Source: Treponema sp.
GTDB lineage: Bacteria > Spirochaetota > Spirochaetia > Treponematales > Breznakiellaceae
Reading direction: 5' to 3'
NCBI GenBank assembly: GCA_031279925.1
Contig: JAITHQ010000116.1
Span: 1 to 10,294 of the forward strand
DNA length: 10,294 nt
Below the pieces are notes generated by a model. It had not been told where the DNA came from and made no database searches. It saw only the letters and a list, made by a program, of their open reading frames with translations. Position numbers and translations under genes: made by a program. Shown here one piece after another: positions 5,416 through 10,294 of this stretch (the stretch's first letter is position 1; the number at the start of each line of letters is the position of its first letter).

Positions 5416-6477
5416 ATGGCAAAGACAAGCGCTTCCACGGGCGGGGCCGCTCCCGGCGGTTCCAAAAAGAAGGGTGGAAAAGAATACACCGGACGCCAGA
5501 AGGCCGCCATTTTCCTCGTTACCATTGGCTCGGAACTGTCTTCGGAGATATTCAAGTATCTGCGGGAAGATGAAATAGAAACCCTTACCTTTGAAATTGC
5601 CCGTCTTGAAACCATAGACGCGGAACAGAAAGACGTCATTCTTCAGGAATTCCAGGAACTGATGATGGCGAACCAGTTTATTTCCACCGGCGGCATCGAC
5701 TACGCGCGGGAGTTGTTGGAAAAATCCCTGGGCAGCCAGAAGGCCATCGATATTATCAACCGGCTTACCTCAAGCCTTCAGGTGCGGCCTTTCGATTTTA
5801 TCCGGCGTACCGATCCGGCGCACCTCCTCAACTTTATTCAGCAGGAGCATCCCCAGACTATCGCCCTTATCCTGGCATACCTTGAGCCAAACAAAGCGTC
5901 TATCATTTTGCAGAACCTGCCCCACGAGGTGCAGAGTGATGTGGCCCGGCGTATAGCCACTATGGACCGGACCAGTCCCGAAGTGCTGCGGGAAGTTGAG
6001 CGGGTGCTTGAAAAGAAACTTTCAACGCTGTCCAGCGAAGACTATACTACCGCCGGCGGCGTTGAGAGCATCGTTGAGATACTCAATCTGGTTGACCGCG
6101 CTTCCGAAAAGCAGATTATCGAAGCGCTGGAAGATGAAGACCCGGAACTTGCCGAAGAGATCAAAAAACGTATGTTCGTGTTCGAGGACATTGTTATGCT
6201 GGACGACCGCGCCATTCAAAAGGTTATGCGGGAAGTGGATTCCCAGGAACTTGCCAAGGCGCTCAAATCGGTGGATACCGAAGTACAGGACAAGATATTC
6301 AGAAATATGTCCAAACGCGCCGCGACTATGCTTAAAGAAGACATGGAATACATGGGACCGGTACGGCTTAAAGACGTTGAGGAAGCGCAGCAGAAGATCG
6401 TTTCGATTATCAGGCATCTGGAAGACACCGGCGAAATCGTAGTTGCCCGCTCCGGCGAGGACGAGATGGTTGTATAA
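5416..6477 (+). CDS. fliG: Flagellar motor switch protein FliG
   Basis: FliG forms the cytoplasmic rotor ring that receives torque from the stator and transmits switching by FliM. The 353 residues cover the whole family. A Gly/Ser/Lys-rich leader (1-23) precedes the N-terminal FliF-binding domain. The middle domain contains EHPQ (144-147), the FliM-binding motif. The hinge MFVFED begins at 253. The C-terminal torque domain carries the charged residues expected there, including LDDRAIQKVMREVDSQELAKAL (262-283) and RNMSKRAATML. GGAGGA at 5403-5408 lies 7 bases before the ATG. Spirochaetes often carry two fliG genes; the copy in the flgB-fliJ operon is the motor copy in Borrelia (FliG2), so this one is probably the functional rotor protein. 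That paralogue assignment is inferred from context. Confidence 0.97.
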   Translation: MAKTSASTGGAAPGGSKKKGGKEYTGRQKAAIFLVTIGSELSSEIFKYLREDEIETLTFEIARLETIDAEQKDVILQEFQELMMANQFISTGGIDYARELLEKSLGSQKAIDIINRLTSSLQVRPFDFIRRTDPAHLLNFIQQEHPQTIALILAYLEPNKASIILQNLPHEVQSDVARRIATMDRTSPEVLREVERVLEKKLSTLSSEDYTTAGGVESIVEILNLVDRASEKQIIEALEDEDPELAEEIKKRMFVFEDIVMLDDRAIQKVMREVDSQELAKALKSVDTEVQDKIFRNMSKRAATMLKEDMEYMGPVRLKDVEEAQQKIVSIIRHLEDTGEIVVARSGEDEMVV

Positions 6478-6483
6478 GGAGGA
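6478..6483 (+). promoter_or_regulatory. Shine-Dalgarno sequence stranded upstream of fliH
   Basis: GGAGGA directly follows the fliG TAA stop, yet no start codon lies at normal distance. The nearest good start, the ATG of fliH at 6620, is 136 bases further on. The intervening 6486-6612 is a long inverted repeat. With that stem excluded, the distance to the ATG is 2 + 7 = 9 bases, a normal spacing and the same as for hslU. No other purine-rich site precedes the fliH ATG; the bases just before it are pyrimidine-rich. Confidence 0.6.
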
Positions 6484-6485
6484 AA

Positions 6486-6612
6486 GGGAATAGGGAGCGG
6501 GGAAGAGGGAACAGGGAACAGGGACTGAACGTCAGCGAGTTTTACGTGTATACGTATTGCTTATAGACAATGCTCCCTGCTCCCTGCTCCTTGCTCCCTG
6601 CTCCCTGCTCCC
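6486..6612. repeat. Inverted array of 7-base repeats between fliG and fliH
   Basis: The left arm (6486-6527) is six heptads of GGGAACA type: GGGAATA, GGGAGCG, GGGAAGA, GGGAACA twice, then a degenerate GGGACTG. The right arm (6571-6612) is six heptads of TGCTCCC with one changed base (TGCTCCT at 6585-6591). The arms are complementary in register over 42 bases, with about one mismatch per heptad, mostly A opposite C, plus some G-T wobbles. The 43-base loop contains a smaller palindrome, TACGT-GTAT-ACGTA (6543-6556). Such heptad arrays resemble the short tandemly repeated repetitive sequences known from cyanobacteria; common origin is not implied. Confidence 0.85.
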
Positions 6613-6619
6613 CACAATC

Positions 6620-7705
6620 ATGGCGAAGGCAGTATTCAGACCCGGTGAACTTACCGAACTTAACGAGAAAGTTGTCATCGAGACCCCTACATCTTTTCCC
6701 GATCTTGCCCATCTTGCCCCTGAGGAAGAGGAAATTGAAACAGAGGAGCCGGTAGAGGAATATTTGGGCCCTACTGCGGAAGACCTGCGGCGTGAAGCGG
6801 AAGCCTTCAAGTTTCAGTGGGATACTGAACGCGAAGCGATGATTCAAAACGCAAAGGACGAGGCAGAGCGTATAGTAAAAGAGGCTGAGGAAGCCGCAAG
6901 CGGTACATTGCAGCAAAAACACGAAGAAGCGGAAAAGCTAAAAACAGAGGCGCAGGAAGAAGCGGAAAAAATCATTACCGGGGCAAAACTGCAAATCCAG
7001 GAGCTTGAGGCTGAAAGCCACAAGACCTTTGAGGCCGGGCGGAAGGAAGCGGAAGAGCAGGGTAGGGAAGCGGGGCGGGAGGCCGGCTTTGCCTCCGGTA
7101 AGGCCGAGGTTGAACGGCTTATCCAGCGTACCCAAATCGTGCTTGAACGGGCACAGGACAAGCGGGCGGAAATTCTTGCCGAGACCGAGCAGGAAATTAT
7201 CGATCTGGTGCTGCTTATCTCCCGTAAAGTTGTCAAAGTTATTTCCGAAAATCAGCGCAACGTGATTGTTTCCAATGTGATTCAGGCCCTGCGGAAGGTG
7301 CGGGATCGGGGGAACATTATTATCCGTGTAAATATTGCCGATGTAAAACTTGCCACCGAACACACCAAAGACTTTATCCAGATGCTTGAGGGCGTAAAGT
7401 CCATTCAGGTGGTGGAGGATTCTTCGGTGGATTCAGGCGGCTGCATTATCGAAACCGATTTTGGCGAAATTGACGCCCGCATCGCAAGCCAGCTTGCCGA
7501 GCTTGAAGCAAAGATACTGGAAATTTCTCCAATAAAGTCAAAGATACGGCAGTCCCCGGCAGGGACGGCAAACGGCGTTCCATCCAACGGGGCTGCCCGT
7601 GCGGCGCTGGCTGCCCGCGCGGCTGCGGCGACCAAAGCCGTAAGCGCCGCCGCTGAAACAGCCGCAGCGCCGGCGGCGGCTGTGAGTGAAGCGCAAAATG
7701 AATAA
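6620..7705 (+). CDS. fliH: Flagellar assembly protein FliH
   Basis: FliH is the cytoplasmic stator-like regulator of the export ATPase FliI, tethering it to the export gate. From the ATG at 6620 the product has 361 residues. An acidic stretch (34-47) and a long Glu/Lys/Ala coiled coil (about 55-145) lead into GREAGREAGFASG (148-160), three overlapping GxxxG motifs typical of FliH. The C-terminal globular domain (about 185-310) includes VVEDSSVDSGGCIIETDFGEIDARIASQLAEL, a strong family signature. Residues from about 315 form an Ala-rich tail, not needed in most homologues. An in-frame TTG at 6557 would add 21 residues made of the translated repeat (APCSLL repeated) and has no good ribosome binding site, so I chose the ATG. 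The start lies just after the heptad inverted repeat. Confidence 0.93.
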   Translation: MAKAVFRPGELTELNEKVVIETPTSFPDLAHLAPEEEEIETEEPVEEYLGPTAEDLRREAEAFKFQWDTEREAMIQNAKDEAERIVKEAEEAASGTLQQKHEEAEKLKTEAQEEAEKIITGAKLQIQELEAESHKTFEAGRKEAEEQGREAGREAGFASGKAEVERLIQRTQIVLERAQDKRAEILAETEQEIIDLVLLISRKVVKVISENQRNVIVSNVIQALRKVRDRGNIIIRVNIADVKLATEHTKDFIQMLEGVKSIQVVEDSSVDSGGCIIETDFGEIDARIASQLAELEAKILEISPIKSKIRQSPAGTANGVPSNGAARAALAARAAAATKAVSAAAETAAAPAAAVSEAQNE

Positions 7706-7732: not shown

Positions 7733-9253
7733 ATGGAAAACGCAATATTTGAAAAATATCTTGAAACCGCTGAACGTACCGATACAATAAAATGCACCGG
7801 CAGGGTATCGAAAGTCCATGGACTCCTTATCGAAAGCAGGGGGCCGCAGGCGGTTATCGGCGAGATATGCCGCATCGAGGCGCCCAGAGGCCGCGGCCTT
7901 ATCCAAGCCGAGGTGGTGGGTCTGCGGGACGAAATCGTTCAGCTTATGGCTTTTGAGGAAACCGGCGGCCTTGAGGTGGGGAGCCGCGTTATTGCTTCTG
8001 GTTCACGGCTGGAAGTGCCGGTATCGGTAAAGCTCCTTGGCCGGGTGCTTGATGCCCTGGGGAATCCTGTTGACGGCAAAGGTGACATAGAATCCGTATT
8101 TTTGTACCCGGCTCTGGCAAATCCCCCCGACCCCCTCAAGCGGCGGCGCGTTACCGAAAGGATCGTTACCGGAGTGCGGGCCATAGACGGACTCCTTGCC
8201 GTGGGCAGGGGGCAGCGCCTGGGTATCTTTGCCGGTTCCGGCGTGGGCAAGTCGACCCTTTTGGGAATGATAGCCCGCAATACCAACGCCGATGTTAACG
8301 TGGTGGCCCTTATCGGTGAACGGGGGCGGGAGGTGAATGACTTTATCGAAAACGACCTTGGTCCGGAAGGGCTTGCCCGTAGTGTGCTGGTTGTTACTCC
8401 TTCAAACTCGCCGCCCCTTGCCCGTCTGCGGGGGGCATACGTGGCCACTGCTGTCGCCGAATTTTTCCGTGACCAGGGCCTTGACGTGATGCTCCTTTTT
8501 GATTCAGTCACCCGCTTTGCCCGCGCCCAGCGGGAAATCGGCCTCGCATCGGGCGAGCCGCCGGCCACCAGGGGTTATACTCCCAGCATGTTCGACTCCA
8601 TGCCCAAGCTGCTTGAACGTAGCGGTACTGCCGATGTTGGCAGTATCACCGGCTTTTATACAATCCTTGTTGACGGCGACGATATGGACGAACCGGTTGC
8701 CGATACGGTGCGGGGAATTTTAGACGGCCACATTGTGCTTTCCCGCAGGCTTGCCCAGGCATACCATTATCCGGCGATTGATGTGCTGCAAAGCGTTTCC
8801 CGCCTTGCCTCTTCGGTATCGGGGCCGGTAACGGCCAGGGCCGCAGGTTCCATCCGCAGAAGCATGGCGGTCTATGCCGAGGCAGAAGACCTTATCAATG
8901 TGGGGGCCTATCATGCGGGATCAAACCCGTCGATAGACGAATCCATTGCCAAACACGGCTACATCGAAGATTTCCTTGTTCAGGCGGTGGATGAGCGTTC
9001 CTCCCTTTCGGAAACCCTCCAGATCATGTCCAAAATTAGCGGCGTTCCCATACCGCAGGAAGAGATGAACGGCAGCCTGCCCGGTAAACTACAGAATTCT
9101 CAATCGCAAAAGGAAGCCTTTCCATCCCGCACGGCAGGCGGCATGTTCGGTTCCCCGGGGGAAACAGGCAAGGCGGCGGACAGGGCGCTGAGCAGCGTAG
9201 CCGCTCTGTTTTCGGCCTTTAACGGGATTAATCCGTCTGCCGCCGCTCCATGA
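7733..9253 (+). CDS. fliI: Flagellum-specific ATP synthase FliI (export ATPase)
   Basis: FliI is the hexameric ATPase of the flagellar type III export apparatus, homologous to the F1 beta subunit. The 506 residues show an N-terminal beta-barrel domain (about 20-95), Walker A GSGVGKST (168-175), GERGREV with the catalytic Glu196, and Walker B DVMLLFDSVTR (251-261). The segment PSMFDSMPKLLERSG (284-298) is typical of FliI and related type III ATPases and distinguishes them from F1 subunits. The C-terminal domain carries SVSRLASSVSG and the rest of the family fold to about residue 440. Residues 445-506 extend beyond the roughly 457 residues of enterobacterial FliI and are low in complexity. GGGAGG at 7721-7726 is 6 bases before the ATG. 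The stop overlaps fliJ by 4 bases. Confidence 0.97.
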   Translation: MENAIFEKYLETAERTDTIKCTGRVSKVHGLLIESRGPQAVIGEICRIEAPRGRGLIQAEVVGLRDEIVQLMAFEETGGLEVGSRVIASGSRLEVPVSVKLLGRVLDALGNPVDGKGDIESVFLYPALANPPDPLKRRRVTERIVTGVRAIDGLLAVGRGQRLGIFAGSGVGKSTLLGMIARNTNADVNVVALIGERGREVNDFIENDLGPEGLARSVLVVTPSNSPPLARLRGAYVATAVAEFFRDQGLDVMLLFDSVTRFARAQREIGLASGEPPATRGYTPSMFDSMPKLLERSGTADVGSITGFYTILVDGDDMDEPVADTVRGILDGHIVLSRRLAQAYHYPAIDVLQSVSRLASSVSGPVTARAAGSIRRSMAVYAEAEDLINVGAYHAGSNPSIDESIAKHGYIEDFLVQAVDERSSLSETLQIMSKISGVPIPQEEMNGSLPGKLQNSQSQKEAFPSRTAGGMFGSPGETGKAADRALSSVAALFSAFNGINPSAAAP

Positions 9254-9833: not shown

Positions 9834-10205
9834 TTGCTGATTCGGGAGTGCTTCTTTCCTGTGGTTATGTCCATTCCCCTATTTCCTTTTTTGAGCTTCC
9901 ATACTGTATTCCGAATTCAACCCCTTTACGGTTACAGTATTTACAAAACGGTTTCGGCGTATATAAAAAATTATGTACTTAATAAAGAGTTATCATACGT
10001 AGTGCGCTGGCCCTGGTATTTTGGGATAGAAAAGATCAGTCAGTTGATCCAGCGGCTGAAAGGGGAACCGAACCGGCGGCTGTTATGCGGATTTACGAAG
10101 GTACCCGGCAAGGCTACGTTTTCACGGTCGCTTAGGCTTTTGTCGGAGCAGGACATACTTGAAAAGACGCCGGATAAGCCAGGGCCAGCGCATATAAATT
10201 TATAA
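9834..10205 (+). pseudogene. Truncated N-terminal fragment of an IS4/IS5-like transposase
   Basis: The 123-residue reading frame (TTG start at 9834, or ATG at 9867) resembles only the N-terminal helical domain of DDE transposases of the IS4/IS5/IS1182 type. The informative part is residues about 65-111: GIEKISQLIQRLKGEPNRRLLCGF, then VPGKATFSRSLRLLSEQDILEK. The pattern of a helical region, LCGF, and then a TFSR motif is familiar from that domain. The catalytic DDE core is missing: the frame runs into a short unrelated end (PDKPGPAHINL) and stops. The first 30 residues are hydrophobic and of doubtful coding value. It is most likely a remnant left by deletion. The alternative, a small standalone DNA-binding protein, is less likely. 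The exact IS family is not certain. Confidence 0.6.
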
Positions 10206-10235
10206 TTCCTTATGGGATAAGGAATTAGCTTTTTT
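10203..10235 (+). terminator. Hairpin with T-run, probable intrinsic terminator
   Basis: TAATTCCTTAT (10203-10213) and ATAAGGAATTA (10217-10227) form a perfect 11-bp stem with loop GGG, followed after GC by six T residues (10230-10235). It overlaps the stop of the transposase fragment. The stem is AT-rich, so termination may be weak. The same sequence recurs 56 bases on, which suggests it may be part of a repeat rather than a dedicated terminator. Confidence 0.5.
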
Positions 10236-10279
10236 AGACTGTTTTACTCATGATTTTGTAATTCCTTACAGGATAAGGA
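10203..10279. repeat. Two direct copies of a TAATTCCTTA hairpin
   Basis: TAATTCCTTA-TG-GGATAAGGA at 10203-10223 recurs as TAATTCCTTA-CA-GGATAAGGA at 10259-10279; 19 of 21 bases match and the copies start 56 bases apart. Each copy is itself an inverted repeat: 11 bp in the first, and 6 bp in the second (TCCTTA at 10263-10268 with TAAGGA at 10274-10279). No gene lies between the copies or after them to the window end. The array may continue past 10294. Confidence 0.7.
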
Positions 10280-10294
10280 GATACGATTTTATAT

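Follow-up and report, generated by a model that had tools for sequence, protein, structure and literature searches.

Background

Among described systems, those closest to the locus analysed here are the split ribosome binding sites of bacteriophage T4, where an mRNA structure between the Shine-Dalgarno sequence (SD) and the AUG reduces their spacing from 22 to 5 nt in gene 38 and from 27 to 11 nt in gene 25, and where mutations destabilising the structure lower initiation (PMC3014915). In Escherichia coli thrS, a hairpin in the ribosome-binding region (A-14 to U-48), which stands between the start region and a single-stranded landing region upstream of it, is accommodated without unfolding; pushing an upstream hairpin aside is estimated to take about 0.2 kcal/mol for each nt of its height (PMC3936740).

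The fliG-fliH junction of the window (the whole stretch of 10,294 nt analysed here) resembles T4 genes 38 and 25 in that a structure between SD and AUG is predicted to bring an over-long spacing to a working one, and resembles gene 25 also in being intercistronic, judging by the title of a reference cited for that gene. It differs in that the spacing would be reduced from 136 to 9 nt, against 22-27 nt at the outset in T4, that the structure is a repeat element in what is apparently a bacterial chromosome, and that bridging is a prediction here. These distances agree with the sequence-only reading, which had cited gene 38 as precedent and called the present hairpin unusually long. The likeness to thrS is that a hairpin interrupts the ribosome-binding region; the thrS hairpin, as we understand it, lies upstream of the SD, whereas that of the window lies between SD and AUG.

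Comparable heptad repeats include the STRR repeats of cyanobacteria. In Xanthomonas and Nostoc, G-rich heptads have been described close behind stop codons, on the sense strand, and close ahead of start codons, on the antisense strand (PMC4692102). The window shares with them intergenic GGG heptads in inverted copies able to form stem-loops, and its two arms fit both positions at once. However, its units are of GGGARCA type as opposed to GGGNATC and GGGGAYT, it belongs to another phylum, and the splitting of an SD is not mentioned in the consulted sections of PMC4692102. The titles and abstracts covered by a literature search likewise describe neither a split SD in a spirochaete nor a heptad repeat that splits an SD.

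Genomic setting of the junction

The window reads as a spirochaete flagellar operon, which we take to comprise hslV, hslU, flgB, flgC, fliE, fliF, fliG, fliH, fliI and fliJ. These names are presumed from reading the ORFs, except for FliH, which is backed by database sources, and FliG, whose name comes from the sequence-only reading and from relatives. The database relatives are titled Treponema, Spirochaetaceae or Breznakiella, and many such relatives are termite-gut organisms. The features of the junction are collected in Table 1. Rfam gave zero matches at gathering score in the window, and a consensus scan of 6380-6720 found neither a sigma-70-type promoter nor a terminator.

Two further observations concern the downstream part of the window. 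fliJ (position 9250) overlaps fliI by 4 nt and has as its sole anti-SD match a duplex of -3.1 kcal/mol at 16 nt; thus starts without a real SD, presumably served by coupling, exist in this operon. The end of the window (10192-10294) carries a 36-nt inverted repeat together with related direct copies (TAATTCCTTA...GATAAGGA).

Table 1. Features at and around the fliG-fliH junction (window coordinates)
Feature	Position	Strand	Description
fliG	5416..6477	+	gene upstream of the junction; stop TAA 6475-6477; from the ORF list; relatives up to 96% identical
GGAGGA, putative SD of fliH	6478..6483	+	directly 3' of the fliG stop; anti-SD duplex -9.3 kcal/mol
Left G-rich arm	6486..6527	+	six heptads of type GGGARNA, read from the sequence
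Loop	6528..6570	+	43 nt; 3' part (about 6557-6570) a degenerate heptad continuation, read in register
Right C-rich arm	6571..6612	+	six heptads TGCTCCC/TGCTCCT
Linker CACAATC	6613..6619	+	seven bases from stem to start codon
fliH	6620..7705	+	start ATG 6620 (MAKAVFRPGEL); N-terminus conserved in relatives
TTG, in frame	6557..6559	+	alternative start, judged unlikely; best SD duplex -3.1 kcal/mol at 16 nt
AUGGUUGU at fliG end	6466..6473	+	predicted pairing with ACAAUCAU (6614-6621) in short folding contexts

The fliH start and the absence of a near SD

In the 25 nt before ATG 6620, the best anti-SD duplex is 0 kcal/mol (spacing 2-16 nt), as compared with -9.3 kcal/mol for GGAGGA, which confirms that the only evident SD of fliH stands 136 nt from its start. 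GGAGGA is found at 9 nt for hslU and at 7 nt for fliG, and the SD duplexes of the window's other eight genes tested, fliJ aside, range from -6.2 to -11.8 kcal/mol. The anti-SD letters used are those present in the two 16S genes of the relative Breznakiella homolactica (...GGATCACCTCCTTT). As a chance level, 500 random 25-mers of the window had a median of -3.3 kcal/mol, with 12% lacking any match and 29% reaching -5.

Comparison of the proteins indicates that ATG 6620 is the right start, with MAKAVFRPGE conserved, because FliH relatives begin at the same Met and TTG 6557 is almost without an SD. Among the best 120 of 3069 FliH matches, 112 have KAV or KAI at residue 3 (P0001 and P0002, for example, begin at the M of MAKAVF) and a further six share this first Met although their motif is altered; P0003 and P0006 are extended before it.

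Predicted fold of the spacer

Between GGAGGA and ATG 6620 the order is AA, left arm, 43 nt, right arm and CACAATC. The left-arm heptads are GGGAATA, GGGAGCG, GGGAAGA, GGGAACA, GGGAACA and GGGACTG, and those of the right arm TGCTCCC, TGCTCCC, TGCTCCT, TGCTCCC, TGCTCCC and TGCTCCC. A 42-bp heptad stem with a 43-base loop had been read here from the letters. The arms and the 43 nt between them are present, but the predicted main stem joins 6486-6524 with 6574-6612 in 34 base pairs out of the 42-nt arms, and the loop region folds further. Pair probabilities in the main stem were 0.78-1.0 in four folding contexts. The region 6460-6660 has a folding energy of -86.6 kcal/mol, vs. -60.7 (sd 4.5) in 200 shuffles, none of which was as low (z -5.7); for the 142-nt spacer the values are -74.5 vs. 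-44.5 kcal/mol (sd 4.2; z -7.1, 0/200 as low).

With the left arm 8 nt past the fliG stop and the right arm 7 nt ahead of the ATG, the folded stem leaves 2 + 7 = 9 nt between GGAGGA and ATG, the spacing of hslU, as the sequence-only reading had calculated. The distance from fliG stop to fliH start falls from 142 nt in linear mRNA to 15 nt, close to the median of 11 nt in 122 relatives with short spacers. GGAGGA is itself partly paired in some contexts (0.26-0.61 over 6380-6720, up to 0.63 over 6478-6660), and in short contexts part of the start codon (AU) is drawn into pairing with the end of fliG, in a helix that a ribosome finishing fliG would be expected to open. This helix was also considered as a special feature and rejected, its -9.9 kcal/mol ranking 9/81 among long-spacer junctions and so not being exceptional.

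The junction in related genomes

Relatives were gathered by a FliG search (best 80 of 587 loci) and by FliH searches (loci from 98 and 195 genomes, overlapping sets, used in part); the 241 rows parsed gave 203 distinct junctions including the window, after 26 duplicates and 12 unparsable rows had been dropped. The window is alone among these 203 in having no anti-SD pairing near the fliH start, which makes the split junction rarer than its sequence by itself could tell. Each of the 202 relatives shows, at 3-14 nt, anti-SD pairing of -3.5 kcal/mol or stronger, a mild cut-off that lies near the median (-3.3) of random window 25-mers; in 186 the pairing is -5 or stronger. The sequence-only reading had counted relatives with an unsplit SD as evidence against itself, and every one of the 202 is of that kind. 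With these relatives read as lying outside the window's clade, the split layout of fliH is derived and exceptional, and no control element common to the group at large.

Stop-start spacing is 25 nt or less in 122 of the 202 relatives (median 11) and longer in 80; at short spacers, even tiny ones, the anti-SD match can sit inside the end of fliG, and in several relatives the fliG stop and fliH start overlap or lie 0-3 nt apart. The four closest relatives with junction DNA (L102, L001, L002 and L104; FliH identity 75, 73, 73 and 72%) have spacers of 9, 9, 0 and 3 nt, and three of them carry GG right after the fliG stop. Because these spacers are so short, insertion of the heptad element between SD and start in the window's own lineage is well supported by the comparison. 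GG directly follows the stop in 24 of 85 short-spacer junctions, at the place where the window has GGAGGA, which reads as if an SD there were ancestral. The comparison proposed earlier turned up short-spacer relatives, but none with exactly GGAGGA nine bases from ATGGCGAAG and free of the repeat. A fifth relative (L106, FliH 68%) has a 98-nt spacer with an SD near its ATG.

The other parsed junctions with an insert keep an SD after it. In at least four relatives (L115, L119, L137 and L266, recognised by eye), heptad hairpins with units of their own occupy the same junction, with an SD between hairpin and start, and their folds stand out less against shuffles than that of the window (z -2.3, -2.0, -5.1 and -2.3). 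Since their units differ and an SD is near, the idea that the same-sequence element recurs at this junction was discarded. Eight other fliG-fliH spacers (L004, L006, L007, L111, L112, L128, L139 and L140) carry unrelated hairpin repeats of GGTGCCAG/CTGGCACC, ATCCGTG and CACAGAG/CTCTGTG types, again with an SD lying between repeat and start. The fliG-fliH site is not special in this regard, as long structured spacers occur at other operon junctions too. It was rejected as an insertion hotspot, spacers above 40 nt being found in 17/76 fliG-fliH junctions (window included) vs. 48/66 at fliE-fliF, where starts are less certain; flgC-fliE junctions could be parsed in only 10/81.

Heptad arrays in the style of the window were present in 7/23 and 21/98 related genomes, in accord with the earlier suggestion that a repeat element had been inserted between site and start; the strict inverted heptad pattern was seen in 3/98. 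Among 55 loci (several overlapping) there were 11 inverted heptad elements, all with the G-rich arm first. The heptad hairpins of L172, L173, L174 (about 1480-1610) and of the L115 and L137 spacers have a common core with TTGTTGTT. Most of them carry AACAAC or AACAACAA opposite, like a small inverted element, which is absent from the window core.

N-terminal extensions in the FliH clade

P0003 and P0006 have predicted N-terminal extensions ending in ...IQFPIPHSPFPIPHPIPHSPPLTN before MAKAVF and in ...ASGFRLPLPTD, respectively. Back-translated, these read as heptads of other units abutting the ATG (CCCATTC-like in P0003, GCTTCCG-like in P0006). Peptide shuffles as 7-periodic as the repeat stretches, trimmed by eye, numbered 0 (P0003) and 3 (P0006) of 2000; for the whole extensions they numbered 0 and 19 of 2000. 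When codons for the last seven residues were drawn at random 1500 times, no good SD appeared, the strongest duplex being 0 for P0003 and -2.7 kcal/mol for P0006. Searching for proteins with the P0003 extension returned only P0003 itself (1 match of 2 candidates), and 26/72 candidates matched the P0006 query, the 25 others than P0006 covering 53-57% of it, namely its FliH part. The two database extensions are probably mis-called starts resulting from the missing SD, and such extensions could serve as a cheap marker for further split sites.

In a FliH tree of 30 proteins, the window, P0002, P0003, P0004, P0005, P0006 and P0008 form one clade (support 99/94), whose first fork, under midpoint rooting, has P0006 on one side and the window and P0003 on the other. 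The neighbouring group is weakly supported (81/76) and includes P0009, matched to the short-spacer genome of L001. The parsed relatives with a near SD read as lying outside the window's clade; two of them were placed on the tree, P0009 and P0018 (matched to L001 and L002), and both fall outside it. A start that lacks an SD and abuts heptads may go back to one event before the clade divided, or to as many as three. The whole clade may share the split layout, with its arms replaced, the extensions revealing the right arm only. It is a tentative possibility that the fliH site of this clade has been split by a heptad hairpin since the common ancestor, with the unit replaced while the position, the lack of an SD and presumably the pairing were kept. 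On that reading, an amplifying or mobile repeat would have become a permanent component of a ribosome binding site in a cell, at a length far beyond that of the bridges in T4.

Proposed mechanism and alternatives

As in a split site, the SD is too far from the AUG in linear mRNA (136 nt, with no nearer SD), and a structure that would restore the spacing is found by computation (stem 6486-6612, leaving 9 nt). We propose that a heptad-repeat inverted element was inserted between the SD and the start codon of fliH, and that in the mRNA its arms would pair into a stem of about 34 bp whose base lies 2 nt past GGAGGA and 7 nt before the AUG. A ribosome, either a free 30S subunit or one just done with fliG, 15 unpaired nt before the AUG, would then find the stem moved out of the way and SD and AUG at an ordinary distance of 9 nt. 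Folding-out is the geometry that best suits tolerance of the element; we infer that the stem is formed in vivo, that ribosomes use GGAGGA across it and that fliH is translated well. Taken together, the proposal that the inserted element folds out, as a long counterpart in a cell of the split sites of T4 genes 38 and 25, has in our judgement about an even chance of being correct. Against it, the structures in T4 are much shorter, GGAGGA is similar to the heptads and might itself be part of the element, and RNase III may cleave a stem of 34 bp. The suggestion that the hairpin acts as a structural switch for FliH synthesis found no support.

The first alternative is termination-reinitiation, in which a ribosome that ends fliG reaches the fliH AUG with no need of GGAGGA and the folded stem does no more than place stop and start within 15 nt. 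This would suit the several relatives whose stop and start overlap or nearly touch, the fliJ start with its poor match, and the finding that coupling is most efficient at short distance (PMC12548453). But relatives with tiny spacers still keep an anti-SD match within the end of fliG, the linear stop-start distance here is 142 nt, and structure just past a stop codon has been reported to lower coupling (PMC12548453), so we hold this route to be unlikely.

It is rather improbable that the hairpin serves as a site of RNase III cleavage, or of pausing, and parts fliG from fliH mRNA, so that FliH is lowered, the leader without an SD is weakly translated and the insertion is tolerated as mildly harmful. 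The duplex is long, an RNase III family protein is encoded in 8/8 relatives tested, and hairpin-bearing spacers are common at fliG-fliH and other operon junctions; yet fliH has an intact frame and a protein with close relatives, and the SD kept after the insert at the other parsed inserted junctions suggests that fliH initiation matters.

An assembly error in the short inverted repeat, hiding a true junction with an SD after the hairpin, appears very doubtful. Repeats are easily misassembled and the junction rests on one DNA record, but repeat letters likewise run close up to the Met in P0003 and P0006, which come from other contigs. There is scant likelihood that the G-rich arm forms an RNA G-quadruplex before the C-rich arm is made, thereby controlling access to the adjacent SD: a motif of GGG tracts with 4-nt loops does start at 6486 on the mRNA strand, and the Xanthomonas/Nostoc heptads form quadruplexes as DNA oligonucleotides (PMC4692102), but the very stable hairpin occupies the same G tracts. 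Initiation at TTG 6557, which would give FliH a 21-residue extension in a frame that is indeed open, is hardly credible given its -3.1 kcal/mol SD at 16 nt, its location inside the hairpin, the starts of the best 120 homologues (112 with KAV or KAI at residue 3, six more at the same Met), and the repeat letters that make up the P0003 and P0006 extensions.

Implications

If the folding-out of the element is true, the fliG-fliH junction would show what length of folded structure can stand between SD and start when a ribosome initiates, and that split sites occur in cellular operons, beyond phage T4. It would also mean that a repeat inserted into a ribosome binding site can be neutral, with RNA folding it away. 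The seven-member FliH clade offers a natural test of this without experiment, since differing arms that are each self-complementary would mean selection on the fold.
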